Source: Allobaculum mucilyticum
GTDB lineage: Bacteria > Bacillota_I > Bacilli_A > Erysipelotrichales > Erysipelotrichaceae
Length of the DNA: 64,000 nucleotides
Assembly: GCF_022701195.1 (NCBI RefSeq)
Contig: NZ_CP078089.1
Span: forward strand, 1,922,001 to 1,986,000
Direction of reading: 5' to 3'
Positions 1,820 to 12,965 of the stretch are shown piece by piece. The translations under genes were made by a program, and so were the position numbers. A model generated the notes under the pieces. It did not search any database and was not told the origin of the DNA. It saw only the letters and a list, made by a program, of their open reading frames with translations. The number at the start of each line of letters is the position of its first letter. The stretch's first letter is position 1.

Positions 1820-1842
1820 TAACCGACTCTGATCCGCTCAGG

Positions 1843-1872
1843 TTCAGGCTGTGTAAATGGAATGCGTATAAT
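1843..1872 (+). promoter_or_regulatory. Promoter of the mini-CRISPR-like RNA
   Basis: A perfect -10 TATAAT lies at 1867-1872, with a weak -35 TTCAGG at 1843-1848 and an 18-bp spacer. Transcription would start near 1879, just ahead of the first repeat-like hairpin. The -35 region is partly complementary to the stem of that hairpin (AGGTTCAGG against CCTGAACCT), which may be chance. Confidence 0.55.
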
Positions 1873-1878
1873 AGGAAG

Positions 1879-1996
1879 ATCTGAAGTATTTAGACCTGAA
1901 CCTTCAGGTGTGATCCATTAAAGATCGACGGATCAGACAAATGTCTATTTTTTTGTCCCCGCGGAGCGGGGGTGGCGGAGCAATCCGCTTTTTTTA
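1879..1996 (+). ncRNA. CRISPR-repeat-derived guide-like RNA (CreA/CreR type), two degenerate repeats around one spacer
   Basis: The first repeat-like unit, 1889-1916, copies the array repeat exactly in architecture: 5 nt, 6-bp stem, 4-nt loop, 6 nt, then the handle GTGATCC. Its stem is ACCTGA/TCAGGT where the array has CCCCGC/GCGGGG, so the pairing is kept while the sequence differs. The second unit, from 1952, keeps TTGTCCCCGC and GCGGGGGTG with a 3-nt loop, then runs into a terminator. Between them lie 35 nt (1917-1951), close to the 33-nt array spacers. Known CreA antitoxins and CreR cas-regulating RNAs have this form and direct Cascade to a partly matching promoter. The target and role here are inferred, not shown. 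Confidence 0.7.
1975..1996 (+). terminator. Terminator of the mini-CRISPR-like RNA
   Basis: GCGGA, loop GCAA, TCCGC, followed by seven T residues. It begins directly after the second repeat-like hairpin and ends the unit well before cse1, which shows the RNA is separate from the cas operon. Confidence 0.8.
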
Positions 1997-2111: not shown

Positions 2112-2253
2112 AAACATACTGACTGAATACTGAGAAATGAACGAACAGAGATATATCTACAGGCTCAGAGTATTGAGAGTGGCAGTTTAGCCCCTTTTAT
2201 CATCTGCCCGACAAGCAATTTTTTATTTTCTTCGATATTTAAGTTCTGAAATG

Positions 2254-2281
2254 TTGAAGAAAACTGGATTCCTGATATTGT
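2254..2281 (+). promoter_or_regulatory. Promoter of the cse1-cas2 operon
   Basis: TTGAAG at 2254-2259 and TATTGT at 2276-2281 with a 16-bp spacer lie about 54 bp before cse1. After the small-RNA terminator at 1996 the operon needs its own promoter, and this is the best match in the gap. Confidence 0.5.
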
Positions 2282-2334: not shown

Positions 2335-4020
2335 ATGGAACGTAAATTCAATTTGGTTCTGGAGCCCTGGATTCAGGTGCGCAGACCCGATGAAACCGTT
2401 GAAACCGTATCGCTGGCAGATTTGTTTGCAAACGCACAGACGTATACAGAACTTGCTGGAGAAACCGCAGCCCAGAATGCCGCGGTTCTCCGGCCCCTTC
2501 TGGGGATTGTCCATAAGGCGATTTTAGAAAATGACCCAGATGGAGATCCGGATTTGCTGGAAGAGAAGGATAAATGCTATGACCGCTGGCAGGAAATCTG
2601 GGAGTCCGGTCATCTGCCGCAGGCGCCCATACAGAATTACCTTAAGGAGCACATTGATGATTTCTGGCTGATTGACGAAAAAAATCCGTTTATGCAAAGC
2701 ACGCTGGCTAAGATCGGCACAGTTTATGGGGCGTCTAAACTTCTTGGAAATGTGGCGGAATCGTCCAACAAAGTACGCTTATTTTCTAGCAGGGCGCTTG
2801 AAGGAAAGGAAAGCGTTAGTTTTGCAGAGGCTGCCAGGTGGTTGCTGAACCTAAATGGCTACGACGACACAAGCGCAAAAGCCAAAAACAAAGAGCAGAG
2901 CGATGGGTCTCCGGGAGCAGGATGGCTGGGCAAACTTGGTCAGCTGTATGCAAAAGGAGAGAATTTATTTGAGACGCTGATGCTCAACTGCATTCTCATC
3001 CGTGACGGAAAAGAAGTGTATCCTCCGGATCATCTCAGCTGGGAGGACAGCCAGACAAGGTGGAAAGAACGTCATCATGTCCCTCAGCCGGGAAATTTCG
3101 GAGAACTCATGACTTTTCGCTCACGACTGATTCTTCTGGAATCTGATGGAGATTGTGTAACAGGATACAAACTTCTTGGCGGGGAGTATTTTGATCGGGA
3201 AAACTGCTTTGCAGAACCTTTCACAGTATGGAGAGCGGGAAAAGAAGTAAAAGACAAGCCGCGGGAATTTACTCCCAAAAGGCATTCTGAAGCCAGGCAG
3301 CTCTGGAGAGATTTTTCGTCAATTGTCGCTCCGGAACAGGAGACTGGTGTTGCAAGACCCGGAATCGTTGAGTGGATTCAATTACTGATCAAGGCAAGGG
3401 CTCTTCCTTCTGATTATCCGATCGTCCTTGAAGCGCCGTTTGTTTCATATGGCGATAAGGACTTCTTCATTACGAATGTCAGCAGTCAGAATCTGACGCT
3501 GCTTTCAGGCATGTTTGCGGATGCTGGCACAGAGTGGATCAAAGAAATTCAGAAGCAAATTAAAACGATTGATAAAATTGCTGCCTGCGCGGGCTATTTC
3601 TATGCCGATGTAGCTGAAGTGCGGGGCGGCAAGAAAGAAACACGCGAAACGGAAAAGGCGCGAGGAATGTCGAAAGCATATGCGCTGCTGGATGAACCGT
3701 TTTCGGCCTGGCTGAGCAGTATCCGCCCGGAAGAAAATGATGAAGCTGCAATCGAACAAAAAGTTGGCGAATGGGCAAGTCAGGCAGCTCTTCTGCTGAC
3801 GCGCTTCCGGCGCAAAAAAATTGAAAAATCTATCAATATGGCAGATCCAGGCGCTGTGTTTGGCCGGATGATTAAAGATCCGGAGAGCGGACAGGATAAA
3901 AGTATTTCGATTCTGCAGGCTGATCAGAAATTCGCTGCTCAGATTCGTAAGTATTATCCGAGTGCAGATCTTTTTACCAGAGATAAGGAAGAGGTGATTC
4001 CGAATGTTGAGCAGGCGTGA
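2335..4020 (+). CDS. cse1: Cse1 (CasA, Cas8e), Cascade large subunit
   Basis: Large subunit of the type I-E Cascade complex. It reads the PAM and recruits Cas3. The 561-residue protein starts in family style (MERKFNLVLEPWIQV) and is somewhat longer than the usual 500 or so residues. The start is supported by GAGAGGAGG 7 to 8 nt upstream. It is the first gene of the operon and its 3' end overlaps cse2 by 17 bp. A 10-nt stretch at 3871-3880, preceded by ATG, equals the first 10 nt of the spacer of the mini-CRISPR RNA (see findings). Confidence 0.95.
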   Translation: MERKFNLVLEPWIQVRRPDETVETVSLADLFANAQTYTELAGETAAQNAAVLRPLLGIVHKAILENDPDGDPDLLEEKDKCYDRWQEIWESGHLPQAPIQNYLKEHIDDFWLIDEKNPFMQSTLAKIGTVYGASKLLGNVAESSNKVRLFSSRALEGKESVSFAEAARWLLNLNGYDDTSAKAKNKEQSDGSPGAGWLGKLGQLYAKGENLFETLMLNCILIRDGKEVYPPDHLSWEDSQTRWKERHHVPQPGNFGELMTFRSRLILLESDGDCVTGYKLLGGEYFDRENCFAEPFTVWRAGKEVKDKPREFTPKRHSEARQLWRDFSSIVAPEQETGVARPGIVEWIQLLIKARALPSDYPIVLEAPFVSYGDKDFFITNVSSQNLTLLSGMFADAGTEWIKEIQKQIKTIDKIAACAGYFYADVAEVRGGKKETRETEKARGMSKAYALLDEPFSAWLSSIRPEENDEAAIEQKVGEWASQAALLLTRFRRKKIEKSINMADPGAVFGRMIKDPESGQDKSISILQADQKFAAQIRKYYPSADLFTRDKEEVIPNVEQA

Positions 4021-4618
4021 GCAGGCAGATCTGGCCTACAGTGCAGTCAGCCGGCAGATTCACGAGCTGAATCAGATCAGAGGCACAGGGGAAGAAAAAG
4101 CGCTCCTTGCAAATCTGCGTAGAGCTGCAGGAAAAAGCCCGGCCGAAGTGCCGGAAATCTGGGGCGCTGTTTTAAGCGGCCTTGAGACGGAAGACAGGGG
4201 ACGTCGTTCTCTTGGAGCAGATGAAAGCGCCGTCTTCCTGACGATGACTCTTTATGCTGTTGCGTCGCAGGGACGGGATAGCCGATCCCAGGAAGTTCAG
4301 CAGAAAGGGGTCAGTCTTGGAAAGGCAGCAGGCCTTGTGGTCCGAAAAGATCCTGAAAAGATGGCGAGCATGCAGACAAGGCTGAAAAGCGTACTTTCCA
4401 GCAGGCAATATGCGGAAATCGGCACGAAACTTCGTACGCTCATCCCTCTGCTGATCGCGGATGGCGGACTGGATTTCCCAATGCTGGCTAAAGATCTCGT
4501 ACTTCTGAGTGATCCTCACACGAAATCGCAGGTCGGAATTTTCTGGGCAAGAGAATTCGTCAGAGCGATGAGCCCTGAAAAAAAGGCCGAAGAAGATTCA
4601 ACTCAGGAAAAGGAATAA
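4004..4618 (+). CDS. cse2: Cse2 (CasB), Cascade small subunit
   Basis: Small alpha-helical subunit; two copies normally line the belly of Cascade and hold the displaced strand and the crRNA. The 204-residue length and basic helical character fit the family. The ATG at 4004 lies inside the end of cse1 and is preceded by GAGGTG, giving a 17-bp overlap typical of translational coupling. The C-terminal tail is charged (EKKAEEDSTQEKE). Identification rests on position as well as sequence, because this family is poorly conserved. Confidence 0.92.
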   Translation: MLSRREQADLAYSAVSRQIHELNQIRGTGEEKALLANLRRAAGKSPAEVPEIWGAVLSGLETEDRGRRSLGADESAVFLTMTLYAVASQGRDSRSQEVQQKGVSLGKAAGLVVRKDPEKMASMQTRLKSVLSSRQYAEIGTKLRTLIPLLIADGGLDFPMLAKDLVLLSDPHTKSQVGIFWAREFVRAMSPEKKAEEDSTQEKE

Positions 4619-5730: not shown

Positions 5731-6425
5731 TGTATACCCTGCTGCTGCGCCTTGCAGGACCGCTGCAGAGCTGGGGAGCGGATTCAAAATTCGAAATTCG
5801 ATATACGGAGAACGCTCCGACAAAAAGTGGAATTATTGGAATGATAGCTGCTGCACTGGGCCGCAGGCGAGACGAATCGCTCGAAGATTTGAGCAATTTA
5901 CAGTATGGAGTCCGCATAGATCAGCCTGGAGAAGTTATCGAAGATTTTCATACTGCCCGAAAAGACGAGAAGACATCGTATATCACGCGAAGATATTACC
6001 TGTCTGATGCAGTATTTGTAGTCGGCATTGAATCAGATGACCCGGTGAAACTTGAGGATATTAAAAATGCTCTTCAATATCCGGAGTTTCCGCTCTTTCT
6101 CGGGCGAAGATCGTGTCCGCCTGACCCTAGAATGGTTCTCGGAATTGTTGAAAAGCCTCTTGAGCAGGCTTTGAAGGAGTGCCCGCTGCAGGGACGAAAG
6201 AACGCTTCGTATCAGCCGAGAATTCTTCTCGAAAGCAAAAACGGACGAGCTGTTCGACGGGTAATGGATGATCCAGTCTCGTTTAATCCAACAAAACGGG
6301 AGTATCGTTCACGCCTGGTTTCAAGCGTTATTCTGCCCCCCTCAGAACAGCCTGAATCTTTGAGTACTAACCTGAAAAGCGACAGCGAGCATGATCCGTT
6401 TGCAGAACTGGAGGGTACCCGATGA
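5730..6425 (+). CDS. cas5: Cas5e (CasD), crRNA 5'-handle binding subunit
   Basis: Caps the 5' handle of the crRNA in Cascade. 231 residues. The N-terminus (LLLRLAGPLQSWG) is the Cas5 family signature, and the following region (YTENAPTKSGIIGMIAAALG) matches the type I-E subfamily. The start overlaps the cas7 stop (TAATG) and its stop overlaps cas6e by four bases (ATGA), so translation is coupled on both sides. Confidence 0.95.
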   Translation: MYTLLLRLAGPLQSWGADSKFEIRYTENAPTKSGIIGMIAAALGRRRDESLEDLSNLQYGVRIDQPGEVIEDFHTARKDEKTSYITRRYYLSDAVFVVGIESDDPVKLEDIKNALQYPEFPLFLGRRSCPPDPRMVLGIVEKPLEQALKECPLQGRKNASYQPRILLESKNGRAVRRVMDDPVSFNPTKREYRSRLVSSVILPPSEQPESLSTNLKSDSEHDPFAELEGTR

Positions 6426-7057
6426 TTCTTACACGTGTAAAACTTGATACTGGCCTTCGCAAAACTCTTCAGGCTCTGGCAAATCCGAATATTTTTCACG
6501 GCGCTGTAGAACGGAGTCAGACTGGTGAACGGGACAGACTCTTATGGAGGGTCGACTCTCTCAGAAATCAGTATTATCTGCTGATTCTCAGCACTCATCC
6601 GCTCGATGAAGAAAGTCTGGCTGATCAGTTTGCAAGAAATAGAGCAGATGTGGAATCGAAGAACTATTCTGCATTGCTCGATCGAACTGTCAAAGGATCA
6701 AAATGGAGATTTAAACTGGCTGCAAATCCGACGTTTTCTCTTCCATCGCCTTCACGCAATGAAAGAGGAAAGGTAATTTCTCCATATCGCAGAGAAGAGC
6801 AGGTCGCCTGGCTGAAAAGTCAGGCTGCCAAAAATGGTTTTTCTCTGGAAGATGAACAGTTTGATGTGACTGGAGTACGACAGCTGAAAATTAAAAAATA
6901 CGCGCAGAAAAAAGCCGTCACTCTGCAGGAAGTGGTGTACGAAGGCGTACTCACTGTAACCGATCCTGAGCGCTTCCGATCTATGCTGGTCAATGGTATG
7001 GGTCGTGGAAAGGCTTATGGAATGGGTTTGATGACGCTAGTTTCATATCATGGCTGA
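6422..7057 (+). CDS. cas6e: Cas6e (CasE), pre-crRNA endoribonuclease
   Basis: Cuts the pre-crRNA at the base of each repeat hairpin and stays bound to the 3' hairpin. 211 residues. His26 (in NIFHGAVE) falls at the position of the catalytic histidine of Escherichia coli CasE, and a glycine-rich segment (GMGRGKAYGMG) closes the protein as expected. It overlaps cas5 by 4 bp and cas1 by 8 bp. The same enzyme would be expected to process the mini-CRISPR RNA at 1879-1996, whose first stem differs in sequence from the array stem. Confidence 0.95.
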   Translation: MILTRVKLDTGLRKTLQALANPNIFHGAVERSQTGERDRLLWRVDSLRNQYYLLILSTHPLDEESLADQFARNRADVESKNYSALLDRTVKGSKWRFKLAANPTFSLPSPSRNERGKVISPYRREEQVAWLKSQAAKNGFSLEDEQFDVTGVRQLKIKKYAQKKAVTLQEVVYEGVLTVTDPERFRSMLVNGMGRGKAYGMGLMTLVSYHG

Positions 7058-8033
7058 TATTGCATCTGATCAATACAGCAAGTTCCCGGGGGCGGAAAAA
7101 GCCGCCCTCCAGGAACTGCCTGCCATCAAAGACCGCCTGACTTTCATATATCTGGAGCGCTGTAAAATCTCCAGACAGGACAGTGCCTTTACCGCCACGG
7201 ATCAGCAGGGACAAGTTATGATCCCGGCACATTCTTTTGTGACGGTTTTATGTGGACCTGGTACTACAGTCACTCATCGAGCAGTGGAGCTGGCGGCTGA
7301 GGCAGGGACCACAATAGTCTGGGTGGGCGAGGGAAATCTGCGCTTCTATTGCCAGGGAAGACCGCTGACAGACGGAACGACATTACTCGTTAGACAGGCA
7401 AAGTATGTAAGTACTCCCCGTCTCCATATTGAGGTTGTTAAACGCCTCTATTCTCTGCGCTATCCTGGCGAAAATCTGACAGGACTGACCCTTCAGCAGC
7501 TTCGCGGCAAAGAAGGAAGCCGAATGAGACGGACTTACAGGGAGCAGGCGGACCGCTGGGACGTCGACTGGAAAGGGAGAAATTATGATACCGAGCATTT
7601 TTCTCAGGGAGATCCAGTCAATCGAGCGCTATCTGTGGCAAATACATCTTTATACGCTTTATGCCTGTCAGTTATCTACGCGATAGGACTCTCGCCAGGC
7701 CTGGGATTTATTCATGTAGGACATCAGAAATCGCTGGTATACGATATTGCTGATTTGTACAAAGCTGAGATTACGATTCCCCTGGCGTTTCGAATTGCAG
7801 CAAAAAATCCGCCTCAGCTGGAAAAAGAAGTACGGACTGAACTCAGAAAAGAGTTCTATACCCAGCATCTGATTGAGCGGATGATTCGAGATTTAAAATT
7901 CATTTTCGATGCTCAGGATGAGGAATTTCTGCAGAATGCTCCTTTATGCCTGTGGGATAGTCATCGCCCCTGCGTAGAGGCAGGCATCCAGTATTTTCCA
8001 AGAGAAACGGAAAACGAGGAAACAGACGAATGA
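7050..8033 (+). CDS. cas1: Cas1, spacer integrase
   Basis: Integrase of the adaptation complex. 327 residues. Glu155 (in GKEGSR), His222 (in GFIH) and Asp235 (in YDIAD) align with the metal-binding Glu141, His208 and Asp221 of the E. coli enzyme, including the exact 13-residue spacing from His to Asp. The start overlaps cas6e by 8 bp and its stop overlaps the cas2 start by 4 bp. All catalytic residues are present, so adaptation should be active. Confidence 0.97.
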   Translation: MADIASDQYSKFPGAEKAALQELPAIKDRLTFIYLERCKISRQDSAFTATDQQGQVMIPAHSFVTVLCGPGTTVTHRAVELAAEAGTTIVWVGEGNLRFYCQGRPLTDGTTLLVRQAKYVSTPRLHIEVVKRLYSLRYPGENLTGLTLQQLRGKEGSRMRRTYREQADRWDVDWKGRNYDTEHFSQGDPVNRALSVANTSLYALCLSVIYAIGLSPGLGFIHVGHQKSLVYDIADLYKAEITIPLAFRIAAKNPPQLEKEVRTELRKEFYTQHLIERMIRDLKFIFDAQDEEFLQNAPLCLWDSHRPCVEAGIQYFPRETENEETDE

Positions 8034-8887
8034 TCATCATCGTTCTCTCTGTAACCCCTCCTTCCGTAAAAGGTGATATTACAAAATGGCTGTTTGAAAT
8101 CCATCCAGGCGTATATATCGGAAACCCAACAAGACTGGTTGCAGACAGACTGTGGAAACGGATTGAGCGGACAATTAAAAGCGGGAAAGCAGTTATGGTT
8201 CGCTCTGCTCATAATGAACAAGGATTTATCATCCAATCACATAACTCAGATTGGGAAATTGCAGATTTTGATGGACTGCAGCTCATGAGACGGCTGCCCC
8301 GGGAGCGTCCGAAAAGAGAAAGTCCTTCGGTTTCTAATCAGACCAAAACCAGTTCAACTCCATGCATCTCGGAGTTTCGGCTTCCCAAGGAGTTTGTCAT
8401 TCTTGATTTGGAAACGACCGGGCTCGACCCAGAGGCGGATTCTATTCTGGAAATAGGGGCTTTAAGAATCAGAAACTGGAAAATTGAAGATGTGTTCCAT
8501 ACGTTTGTTGCTTCTGAAATAGACATTCCAGAGAAAATTTCCGCTTTGACTGGCATAACAGCAGATTTGCTGCAGGGCGGAGCGACGGAAAGTGAAGCAT
8601 TATACAGCCTGGAACAATTCATTAATGGCAGTCCCATTGCTGGATATAATACTGAGTTCGATATCAGTTTCTTAAAAGAGGCGAGTACACACTATGAACT
8701 CAAATTTAATTTTGATGATGTCATTGATGTGTTGGAACTTGCTCGAATGAAAATTAATGATGTTGTAAACTATAAATTAACGACGGTTGCTTCGCGTTTT
8801 GGGATCAAATGTGAAACAACTCATCGTGCTCTAAGTGATTGTAAAACAATCCTATCTGTGCTTGAAAAATTGAACAAAAAGAAATAG
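8030..8887 (+). CDS. cas2: Cas2 fused to a DEDDh (DnaQ/RNase T-like) exonuclease
   Basis: 285 residues. Residues 1 to about 92 are a type I-E Cas2 (MIIIVLSVTPPSVKG start), followed by a polar linker of about 25 residues. Residues 120-285 are a DEDDh 3'-5' exonuclease: Asp126 and Glu128 (DLETTG), Asp211 (NTEFD), His265 and Asp270 (HRALSD). Cas2-DnaQ fusions are known in type I-E systems such as that of Streptococcus thermophilus, where the exonuclease trims 3' overhangs of prespacers before integration. All catalytic residues are intact. It ends only 41 bp before the first repeat. Confidence 0.96.
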   Translation: MIIIVLSVTPPSVKGDITKWLFEIHPGVYIGNPTRLVADRLWKRIERTIKSGKAVMVRSAHNEQGFIIQSHNSDWEIADFDGLQLMRRLPRERPKRESPSVSNQTKTSSTPCISEFRLPKEFVILDLETTGLDPEADSILEIGALRIRNWKIEDVFHTFVASEIDIPEKISALTGITADLLQGGATESEALYSLEQFINGSPIAGYNTEFDISFLKEASTHYELKFNFDDVIDVLELARMKINDVVNYKLTTVASRFGIKCETTHRALSDCKTILSVLEKLNKKK

Positions 8888-8928: not shown

Positions 8929-11213
8929 CTTGTCCCCGCGTATGCGGGGGTGATCCCGCTGATCGATGCGCAGGATACAAAGATTTCCACTTGTCCCCGC
9001 GTATGCGGGGGTGATCCTCAACGGCCATGTCGTACAGCTGTTCAATGGTCCTTGTCCCCGCGTATGCGGGGGTGATCCTCAAGCGAACAACACGACCGGG
9101 AGGAAGGGGTACTTGTCCCCGCGTATGCGGGGGTGATCCTCAAGCGAACAACACGACCGGGAGGAAGGGGTACTTGTCCCCGCGTATGCGGGGGTGATCC
9201 GCCATTGTGTAGGCGTTGCCGTTTAAATACGTGCTTGTCCCCGCGTATGCGGGGGTGATCCTGGCAAAAAGCGCCTGATCATGGATGAAGCTTGCTTGTC
9301 CCCGCGTATGCGGGGGTGATCCTCTTTTCAAGACATCTGATAATCCGCATCCTTACTTGTCCCCGCGTATGCGGGGGTGATCCTATCATCCCATCTACCG
9401 CCGTAGAGACTCAGAACTTGTCCCCGCGTATGCGGGGGTGATCCCCGGCCTATGGACTGAACGGCCCGTTTGAATATCTTGTCCCCGCGTATGCGGGGGT
9501 GATCCCAAGAAAGTGACAGGCGCTGCATATATTCGGGACTTGTCCCCGCGTATGCGGGGGTGATCCCTGGTCACCGGCATTCGATCGGGTGTAAACCACC
9601 TTGTCCCCGCGTATGCGGGGGTGATCCTAATCCCCTTCAACCAAGATCCAACGCTGGCGGCTTGTCCCCGCGTATGCGGGGGTGATCCCTAAAACGCTCG
9701 CTTCGCCTACATCCGTAGGAACTTGTCCCCGCGTATGCGGGGGTGATCCTCGAAGTCCGGCTGATCTTTGTCACCATAAAAACTTGTCCCCGCGTATGCG
9801 GGGGTGATCCTCAGATGCTCAATGAGCTGACCGCCGTTATTGACTTGTCCCCGCGTATGCGGGGGTGATCCCCCACTTTGCGGATGTTCTGGCGGCCGCG
9901 TCGTCTTGTCCCCGCGTATGCGGGGGTGATCCTTACTTCCCCTGCGGGTCGGCGCCCTATACATGCTTGTCCCCGCGTATGCGGGGGTGATCCCCAAAGT
10001 CCATGCATCGGCTACCTACATGCGCACTTGTCCCCGCGTATGCGGGGGTGATCCTACGGCGGGCTGGCAGAGGACGTTCTTGAAAAACTTGTCCCCGCGT
10101 ATGCGGGGGTGATCCACTTCCAGAACCCAGAAGCGCCGGTTTCCCGTACTTGTCCCCGCGTATGCGGGGGTGATCCTAAATACGCTAATCCAAGAAGTAA
10201 GCCATCATCCTTGTCCCCGCGTATGCGGGGGTGATCCTAAGCTATTCGGACGGAAGCTCACTGATCACTACTTGTCCCCGCGTATGCGGGGGTGATCCTG
10301 TCTTGAAAAGCGCTTCGAGCGCAGTCGTTACCTTGTCCCCGCGTATGCGGGGGTGATCCCGCAGAGTTGAAGCCAATCAGGAGCATCTCGAACTTGTCCC
10401 CGCGTATGCGGGGGTGATCCTTTCAGAAGCGCTGGATTATCGCAGAGAGCTAACTTGTCCCCGCGTATGCGGGGGTGATCCTCGTACCACTTTGAGTTTT
10501 TCTGGCGATGGATACTTGTCCCCGCGTATGCGGGGGTGATCCCGCCCTCAATCCGCGCGAGCTCTCTTTTAGTCTCTTGTCCCCGCGTATGCGGGGGTGA
10601 TCCCAAGCATGCGGACGACTGGCAGGACCTGATCCGCTTGTCCCCGCGTATGCGGGGGTGATCCTTCAGAACGTACGAGCGTGGCAAAGAGACCAGGCTT
10701 GTCCCCGCGTATGCGGGGGTGATCCCCTGATGGGTCGCCAAGATGGAAAAATTTGTTCCTTGTCCCCGCGTATGCGGGGGTGATCCCAAGTTCTTATAAT
10801 GTGACAAGTTAGAGTAACACTTGTCCCCGCGTATGCGGGGGTGATCCTAGGACAATACGTATAATATAATTTACGTAAACCTTGTCCCCGCGTATGCGGG
10901 GGTGATCCTTCCCGACATCGTGGACAAGGCGGCCAAAGTCGCTTGTCCCCGCGTATGCGGGGGTGATCCCTGTATTACCTGCTCAATGTCCGTCCAAACC
11001 CGCTTGTCCCCGCGTATGCGGGGGTGATCCTGTACAACCCGAAGAGCGGCGCGCATATCCTGACTTGTCCCCGCGTATGCGGGGGTGATCCCACTGGTGA
11101 TGCTGATGATCCGATCCCTTATGACTTGTCCCCGCGTATGCGGGGGTGATCCTATCGTTTGCGATTTGCAGATCGACCAGTATGCCTTGTCCACGCAGTT
11201 GGGGACCCTCCAT
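8929..11213 (+). CRISPR. Type I-E CRISPR array, 37 identical repeats plus one degenerate terminal repeat, 37 spacers
   Basis: Repeats begin every 61 bp from 8929 to 11125. Each is 28 bp: CTTGT, stem CCCCGC, loop GTAT, stem GCGGGG, handle GTGATCC, closely similar to type I-E repeats of Firmicutes. Spacers are 33 bp. The last copy at 11186-11213 is degenerate (CTTGTCCACGCAGTTGGGG), marking the old, distal end, so the newest spacers lie at 8957 onward. Spacers 3 (9079-9111) and 4 (9140-9172) are identical. The even spacing and lack of repeat decay suggest a maintained, working array. Confidence 0.98.
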
Positions 11214-11292: not shown

Positions 11293-12965
11293 CAATGTCA
11301 TTAAGTTTAGTTGATTGAGGCCTTTCCTCCTTGATTGGAGGAGAGGTCTCTTTTCTTTTGTCTTTTTTCTTAGCAGAACATATCGGTTACTTGTTTGTAA
11401 TATTCGGTTTTTCGGGAATATCAGGTTGTTTTATACCTCAAATCGTGCGGCCGCTTCGCGGCCCGTTAAGTGACGGAAAGGAAAAATCTTATGCCCTCAC
11501 TTAACACATTCTGCAACCTGCAGTCGGCTGCTCTCAAGCGCTTCATCAAAGAAGAAGCATCCAATTCTGACAATCTGCTCCACCCGGATTCTGACTTCTC
11601 TCGCTCCCGCAGGCTTTCCGCTGTCGATCTGGCAGCCGTGGCCTACCAGACGGAAGATCGCTCGATCAACCGATCTCTTCCCATTCTTCCTGATTCTCTG
11701 TCCGACGTTTCTTTATCTGCCATTTCCCAGGGCAGACAGAAAATCAGGTTCTTGCTTTACTCTCACGTCTTCTATCGCATGAACGATTTGTTCTCTTCGG
11801 AGGATGACAAAACGTTTCATGGATGGCGACTATTGAGCGTCGACGGTTCTGAACTATCAGTCAGCCCCGATGGGAATGACATGTCTACCTATGGCGGATC
11901 GAAAAAGGGATCCAAGCACCATTTTTACCTTGCGAATCCGCTGTATGACGTGCTCAACCATGTTTATCTCGATCTGGTGATGCAGCCAGGTTCTCAGAAG
12001 AACGAGGACTCAGCTTTTCTGGAGCTGGCTCAGCGATACGAAGGAGAAAAGGCGATCTTCATTTGCGACAGAGGCTATGAAGCGCTTATGACTTTCTATC
12101 GTCTGAATCAGACCGATAAGCATTTCGTCATCCGAATCAAGGACGAATCTTCCTCTACCAGTATTCTGAAGCACTATCCAACACCAGATACTGAAGAATA
12201 TGACATTCCATTCGATGTGACTTTGACGTGTAAAAACAACTCCCATGTCAAGGCAAACTGGGAAACCTACAAATACATCTCGTCCTATTCAAAACATCCG
12301 GAATTCCAGAATGGAGTGACTGAACTGCCGCTCCACGGCAGAGTCGTACGCTATAAAACGGTCTGCGAAGGGATTGAGTCTTTCATCACACTTTTTACCA
12401 ACCTGCCGTTTGATGAATTCACCACCGAGGATCTCTGTGAAATCTACCGACTCCGCTGGCAAATTGAGCTCTCGTATCGAGATATCAAAGAGCGGATTGG
12501 ACTGAAGGATGTGCATGGACGCAAGAAGGAACTGGTCATTGGAGAAGTCTTCGCGAAAATGACGCTCTACAACCTGTATTCCCGGATCAGAAACAAGGTT
12601 GAAAACAGTCAGGAATTCGCTGAACGCTGCCGAAATGCCATGAAGAGGAAGTGGGAACAGAAGGCAGATTACGCATTTCTGATCACTGCGGTTCACGCGT
12701 TTCTATGGGACAGCGGAGTTTATACCGCAGACAAGCTGATCAATTTGATCCTTCATAAGACGCAGTCCGTTCGTCCAGGGCGAGCGGATAAGCGCAAAAA
12801 GAAGCGCTGACCAAAAGTTCTGAGAATCGAGAAAGCCACCAGGTGATTTTTTTAAACAGGTAAATAATCACCCTTTTCGTCGTGCTCGACAGAAATCTGG
12901 ACGCCAAAAATCACATGTAAGCTTAACGTTTGAGTGGACCTACCTTATCTAACTTAATGACATTG
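11293..12965 (+). mobile_element. IS4-family insertion sequence, copy 1 (intact)
   Basis: 1673 bp, bounded by inverted repeats beginning CAATGTCATTAAGTT, and flanked by a perfect 9-bp target duplication GTAGTGTAA (11284-11292 and 12966-12974). A long hairpin (about 11325-11360) followed by a T-rich stretch near the left end looks like a terminator that would block transcription entering from outside. It lies 80 bp beyond the end of the CRISPR array and next to the tRNA-Ala terminator. A second copy lies at 21086-22745. Confidence 0.93.
11491..12810 (+). CDS. IS4-family DDE transposase
   Basis: 439 residues. ATG at 11491 is preceded by AAAGGA; a GTG in frame at 11470 lacks a ribosome binding site. 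The catalytic triad is visible: Asp118 (SVDGSEL), Asp193 (ICDRGYE) and Glu326 within the IS4 signature Tyr319-Arg322-Glu326-Lys333 (YRLRWQIELSYRDIK). The reading frame is intact, in contrast to the copy at 21278-22592, which differs mainly by single-base losses in homopolymer runs. This copy is probably able to move. Confidence 0.93.
   Translation: MPSLNTFCNLQSAALKRFIKEEASNSDNLLHPDSDFSRSRRLSAVDLAAVAYQTEDRSINRSLPILPDSLSDVSLSAISQGRQKIRFLLYSHVFYRMNDLFSSEDDKTFHGWRLLSVDGSELSVSPDGNDMSTYGGSKKGSKHHFYLANPLYDVLNHVYLDLVMQPGSQKNEDSAFLELAQRYEGEKAIFICDRGYEALMTFYRLNQTDKHFVIRIKDESSSTSILKHYPTPDTEEYDIPFDVTLTCKNNSHVKANWETYKYISSYSKHPEFQNGVTELPLHGRVVRYKTVCEGIESFITLFTNLPFDEFTTEDLCEIYRLRWQIELSYRDIKERIGLKDVHGRKKELVIGEVFAKMTLYNLYSRIRNKVENSQEFAERCRNAMKRKWEQKADYAFLITAVHAFLWDSGVYTADKLINLILHKTQSVRPGRADKRKKKR

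Follow-up and report, generated by a model that had tools for sequence, protein, structure and literature searches.

The window analysed here is a stretch of 64,000 bases (1,922,001-1,986,000) of the 3,144,153-base single-contig genome of Allobaculum mucilyticum. It starts within cas3, whose frame opens at L002:6015, and continues with cse1, cse2, cas7, cas5, cas6e, cas1 and cas2 of a type I-E system and with the main CRISPR array. The cas3 stop is at 1819 and cse1 starts at 2335. The gap of 515 bases between them holds a mini-CRISPR that consists of a repeat-like unit, a 35-nt spacer-like stretch and a second, degenerate repeat merging into a terminator (Table 1). Elsewhere in the locus, a DEDDh (DnaQ-like) exonuclease domain is fused to cas2e at the C-terminal end (8030-8887), two adjacent array spacers are identical and reflect a repeat-spacer duplication (9079-9172), and the array ends in a degenerate repeat-like unit (11186-11212), after which an IS4-family transposase gene is found at 11470-12810.

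Table 1. Features of the cas3-cse1 gap and associated loci (window positions)
Feature	Position	Strand	Remarks
Upstream arm	1828-1848	+	Reverse complement of the psiR1 5' stem and loop, 1895-1903 (at 1840-1848), and of guide bases 1929-1937 (at 1828-1836)
Putative -10 of the creR promoter	1867-1872	+	TATAAT, from the sequence; no recognisable -35
psiR1, first repeat-like unit	1889-1916	+	Stem ACCTGA/TCAGGT, 3/6 pairs compensated; handle GTGATCC intact
psiS, spacer-like stretch	1917-1951	+	1917 is position 29 of the repeat unit; guide nt 1 is 1918
psiR2, second repeat-like unit	1952-1978	+	Original stem CCCCGC/GCGGGG with a 3-nt loop; GTGGCGG in place of the handle
Terminator-like hairpin overlapping psiR2	1974-1996	+	Stem 1974-1989, then a T run
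Target	2211-2245	-	PAM AAC 2245-2243; protospacer 2242 down to 2211
Inferred cse1 promoter	2254-2281	+	By eye: TTGAAG (2254-2259), 16 nt, TATTGT (2276-2281); TG at 2273-2274 as extended -10
cse1, first gene of the predicted target (Cascade) operon	2335-4020	+	TIGR02547, 118 bits against a cut-off of 70.05
cas6e, whose product is expected to process both repeat-like units	6422-7057	+	TIGR01907, 74.7 bits against a cut-off of 45.2
Main CRISPR array	8929-11152	+	37 exact repeats, whose crRNAs should compete with CreR

The first repeat-like unit reads TTTAG-ACCTGA-ACCT-TCAGGT-GTGATCC. The initial annotation of this DNA had stated that the unit keeps the 5-6-4-6-7 layout of the array repeat and its full handle, and both can be read directly from the letters. 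According to the same annotation, the psiR1 stem departs from the array stem at all six pairs in a way that keeps pairing. The pairs are CG, CG, CG, CG, GC, CG in the array repeat and AT, CG, CG, TA, GC, AT in psiR1; the compensation holds, since every changed pair is still paired, but only three of the six pairs are changed. Over its whole length psiR1 is identical to the array repeat at only 16/28 positions, short of the near-identical repeats of an array. The claim that psiR2 keeps the original stem and runs into a terminator was borne out. A genome-wide search for the psiR2 core (CCCCGC, 3-5 nt, GCGGGGGTG) returned 38 matches, namely psiR2 and the 37 array repeats, and the reversed control returned 0. 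In psiR1 the handle is kept and the stem is changed, and in psiR2 the reverse is seen.

Is this a gene or the debris of an array? A decaying array remnant, or a one-spacer anti-phage unit whose match to a promoter arose by chance, would also have degenerate repeats such as psiR1 and psiR2. A perfect 6-bp hairpin followed by GTGATCC is found once outside the array, and dinucleotide shuffling of the window without the array produced at least one in 16/200 cases. The combination is not very rare, so that psiR1 taken alone is weak evidence. The compensated changes in its stem argue against decay, as do the target and the second genus discussed below.

The element was also said to have its own promoter and terminator. 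The TATAAT is present, and one terminator-like stem was found in 1780-2345 (shuffles average 0.5); the putative promoter consists of the -10 alone, and a promoter scan of the same region found 0 hexamer pairs (shuffles average 0.9). In the predicted fold of an RNA starting at 1879, the psiR1, psiR2 and terminator hairpins all form. A search of Rfam with 1700-2400, at E up to 1, matched no family. In the 214 bp from the creR terminator to the target (1997-2210) no gene or RNA family was recognised.

The spacing of 35 nt between the two units had been given correctly (1917-1951), but the register of the guide had to be corrected. In type I-E systems, position 29 of the repeat unit derives from the PAM. 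This position is C or T in 35/37 repeats of the window array and in 45/52 exact repeats of a second locus (L014, genome G216), which belongs to another genus of the same family and encodes a Cse1 that is 44% identical to that of the window. Because nt 29 is PAM-derived, nt 1 of the guide itself falls at 1918, which gives a length of 34 nt (32 in the array). Three distinct array spacers, two from the window and one from L014, have 33/33 protospacers, and AA precedes nt 29 in all of them. Both window spacers match a genome of the same genus, after GAA and with T as first base. The L014 spacer (11116) matches after AAAA with G as first base; two genomes were matched with identical flanks and were counted once. 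AAN, preferably AAY, was therefore adopted as the PAM; the partial protospacer matches L044 and L045 were left out of this count. The perfect protospacers were obtained after AAY had been set as the PAM and they agree with it. Six exact spacer patterns had 0 matches in viral contigs, and phage BLAST with the window and L014 arrays returned 22 and 3 records, respectively, with no full perfect spacer among the matches listed. The two protospacers of the window spacers (L028 and L032; G001:C1, about 1,970,600 and 1,980,550) lie in a genome that is 58% complete and has no Cse1 match. They are about 10 kb apart, close to terminase genes and to an integrase gene, and probably belong to one prophage.

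A different register was also considered. With a guide start at 1917 the best seed site is AAG-ATTAATGA at L002:5614, 400 bp upstream of cas3, and it was dropped since nt 29 is PAM-derived. In the 1918 register this site is preceded by AGA and not AAN, and by eye it also lies before the terminator of the upstream gene. The best site upstream of cas3 in the 1918 register reaches 8/10 and lacks an AA PAM.

In the 1918 register the guide is partly complementary, behind a PAM, to the putative promoter of its own cas operon. At the target, which is the best site of the gap, guide nt 1-5 match, nt 6 does not, nt 7-11 match and nt 12 does not, with 20/32 matches overall. The accessible text of PMC5904413 describes every sixth position as flipped out in Cascade. 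It also states that robust interference needs 18-25 bp or more, and the window pairing is below this range and therefore clearly too short for cutting. The PAM and ten seed bases (AAYTTAAANATCGA; 2232-2245, minus strand) occur at one place in the 3,144,153-base genome, and the reversed-pattern control occurs at 0. Guides swapped between the window and L014 reach only 7/10 at the other target; array spacers reach at most 7 in the window (36 distinct spacers) and at most 9 in L014 (one of 52). That the single PAM-flanked target of the genome falls at the putative cse1 promoter speaks against an array remnant. This promoter was not found by the promoter scan of the window and is supported by the similar geometry in L014.

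The cas3-cse1 gap of L014 contains CCCG-ATTGG-CGGG-G-GTGATCC, a guide, a stem and a terminator-like hairpin. The psiR1 stem has about 4 pairs in this locus, and the psiR1 hairpin is absent from the minimum-energy fold. The letters of both guide and target differ from those of the window; the PAM is again AAC and the mismatch is again at nt 6. Guide nt 1-23 match a site upstream of cse1 at 21/23 positions (misses at 6 and 14), and nt 24-32 at 2/9. This pairing is at the edge of the range for interference, and safety from cutting is not assured. Dinucleotide-shuffled gaps reached the 10/10 seed match of the window in 1/5000 cases with PAM AAY and in 15/5000 without a PAM, and the L014 match was reached in 0/5000 and 7/5000 shuffles, respectively; these counts are partly post hoc, as the site had been noticed before register, PAM AAY and the seed rule (nt 1-5, 7-11) were set. 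The PAM lies 9 nt upstream of TTGACG-17-TATCTT, one of 5 promoter-like matches in L014 (shuffles average 3.1), and the corresponding distance in the window is 8 nt. The pairing is the same and the geometry similar although the letters differ, which suggests that selection acts on guide and target as a pair. A remnant would not be expected to recur in this way with different letters in another genus, and we regard that explanation as the least probable of those discussed here.

It could also be that the element is a CreA antitoxin, in which case the targeted promoter would drive a small toxic RNA (creT) in 1997-2334 and not, or not only, cse1. In the I-F CreTA of Acinetobacter the cas3-csy1 gap of about 400 bp holds a target and a mini-ORF, according to the accessible text of PMC10097628. 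The window has the 214 bp between terminator and target, which have no assigned role, and a mini-ORF of 8 codons beginning with ATG (2295-2321, by eye) between the putative promoter and transcription start and cse1. However, no ribosome site was seen by eye for this mini-ORF and no counterpart was seen in L014, where there is little room for a toxin: a terminator-like stem (4017-4044) is followed directly by the target (4050-4081), and from the -10 it is 44 bases to the start of the Cse1 match. This figure refers to the match and not to the exact start codon of cse1 in L014. We consider an antitoxin very unlikely. The PAM-flanked target at the putative cse1 promoter, together with the like arrangement in another genus, favours CreR over CreA.

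The position of the site bears on the direction of regulation. In both genera it lies upstream of the putative -35 and not over it, as would suit a CreR-Cascade complex that activates or fine-tunes cse1 instead of repressing it. Promoter occlusion from such a site relies on the footprint of Cascade. The CreR and CreA examples in the accessible text of PMC8501985, PMC13131331 and PMC10097628 repress, and activation appears less probable still than an antitoxin. Work cited in PMC5904413, as far as its accessible text goes, found that promoter occlusion by Cascade is greatly reduced with 6 PAM-distal mismatches, a point against repression in the window, where guide and target agree at 20/32 positions.

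We conclude that the element at 1879-1996 is very probably a creR gene, whose guide RNA would direct Cascade to the putative cse1 promoter and repress its own cas genes. This interpretation is drawn from the sequence. A short RNA from about 1879 would be cut by Cas6e past the psiR1 stem. Its 5' handle would be GUGAUCC and one further nucleotide, followed by the guide, its 3' end would be the psiR2 hairpin or the terminator, and it would be expected to begin with GUGAUCCA. Cascade may take up this RNA as an unusual crRNA. The CreR-Cascade complex would sit on the AAC-flanked site at 2211-2245 by means of about 10-11 PAM-proximal base pairs, presumably too few for cleavage by Cas3, and the PAM side of the bound complex, 8 bp from the -35, would block the promoter of cse1-cse2-cas7-cas5-cas6-cas1-cas2. 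The predicted result is negative feedback on the Cascade and adaptation genes, which could be relieved by array crRNAs competing for Cascade or by Cascade inhibitors. The proposal in the initial annotation of an independent guide-like RNA gene akin to CreA and CreR is supported by the single PAM-flanked seed target and by the arrangement in the other genus.

The element has a narrow distribution among the genomes searched. Within the family 8/272 genomes have Cse1, including that of the window, and 2 of these 8, the window genome and G216, have the element. Wider searches for Cse1 covered the order (8/315 genomes), the class (4/395) and the phylum (4/392) and added no further genome with Cse1, so that little can be said from the scan about phyla beyond this one; no Cse1 was found in the viral contigs searched. 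Ten loci were scanned on both strands for a handle plus a target, with arrays left out and PAM AAY assumed; the scan recovered the elements of the window and of L014. Under this assumption, no convincing element was found in the 6 other family genomes with Cse1 or at 3 more distant loci. Among the family loci L015-L019, four gave no pair in the scan with PAM AAY and L015 gave one, which is chance-like: the handle is mismatched, the best stem has 4/6 pairs, the match is 13/24, and handle and target are about 8 kb apart. For L005 (G020) the result comes only from reading the sequence and from a scan for the handle. A search for relatives with Cas7 gave 3 loci, in none of which do the order and size of the ORFs leave more than 17 bases between cas3 and cse1.

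Another part of the locus is an upstream arm that is complementary to psiR1 and to the guide. The 9-nt match in the window was reached in 4/2000 shuffles and the 12-nt match in L014 in 0/2000. The L014 arm (L014:3919-3952) has a perfect inverted match of 12 nt across the putative creR TATAAT, with the 5' half of psiR1 as its pairing partner. The letters of the two arms are unrelated. In predicted folds the pair probability of the psiR1 hairpin is 0.30-0.34 for an RNA from 1820 and 0.81-0.92 for an RNA from 1879, and in the longer RNA the 5' half of psiR1 pairs with the arm at about 0.66. Energy tests were significant for L014 (3/500 shuffled arms for the total, 0/500 for the gain); in the window 160/500 shuffled arms were as stable in total and 75/500 for the gain, which is not significant. 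It can be speculated from the folding models that in read-through transcripts from cas3 the arm keeps psiR1 out of reach of Cas6e, while transcripts begun at the creR promoter are processed. If this were true, the creR promoter would be the sole source of the regulator, and cas3 messages would escape cleavage. We hold such a lock to be doubtful, and an operator dyad is another explanation for the arm. The arm is the part of the locus that could be new and is best treated as a lead.

The original CreR paper, with 'Widespread RNA-based cas regulation' in its title, is said to have appeared in Cell Host and Microbe in 2023; the title phrase occurs once in each of three papers on the subject, PMC12948488 among them, presumably in their reference lists. 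CreR RNAs are cas-regulating guides, processed by Cas6 and carried by the Cas effector, with which they repress cas genes. CreR has been reported for type I-E (PMC13131331, accessible text), and PMC12948488 (accessible text) describes a regulatory RNA of the mini-CRISPR kind as a sensor of how abundant crRNAs are; the accessible text of PMC8616872 does not include CreR. The window element is an ectopic mini-CRISPR with repeat-derived units close to cas genes. Like the CreR RNAs of types I-B, I-E and V-A, it has divergent repeats and a limited, PAM-flanked complementarity to a cas promoter, here a putative one. CreR RNAs are generally not coupled to a toxin gene; no toxin was seen here, and L014 has little room for one, but in the window 214 bp and the 8-codon mini-ORF have no assigned role. 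The element differs in that an upstream arm is not mentioned in the accessible CreR accounts and in that autorepression is a prediction here. The resemblance to CreA of CreTA (I-B in haloarchaea, I-F in Acinetobacter) is also close. The two repeats are divergent and degenerate, and the handle is retained in psiR1 and lost in psiR2, as described for haloarchaeal CreA (PMC9458426, accessible text), and pairing is at nt 1-5 and 7-11, as in CreA of H. hubeiense (PMC8501985, accessible text). As in Acinetobacter, the element lies between cas3 and the first Cascade gene. In contrast to CreA, whose targeted promoter drives a toxic RNA or protein, the window target is at the putative cse1 promoter and no toxin gene was recognised.

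An ordinary type I-E array shares the handle and the stem architecture with the element, and the repeat-to-repeat distance is similar (63 nt in the element, 61 nt in the array). The element differs from such an array in having one spacer, a guide of 34 nt (32 in the array), two unlike repeats, its own terminator and a self target. Its Cas6e stem has kept pairing even though half of the pairs have changed. The locus provides a candidate I-E CreR from nature whose target is precisely placed, and L014 adds a second guide-target pair that differs in its letters and resembles the first in geometry. Swaps between the two could probe the minimal pairing for regulation by Cascade, as well as why the organism's own genome is spared cutting. 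If the CreR interpretation holds, a known control circuit is extended to a new place; it opens no new one.
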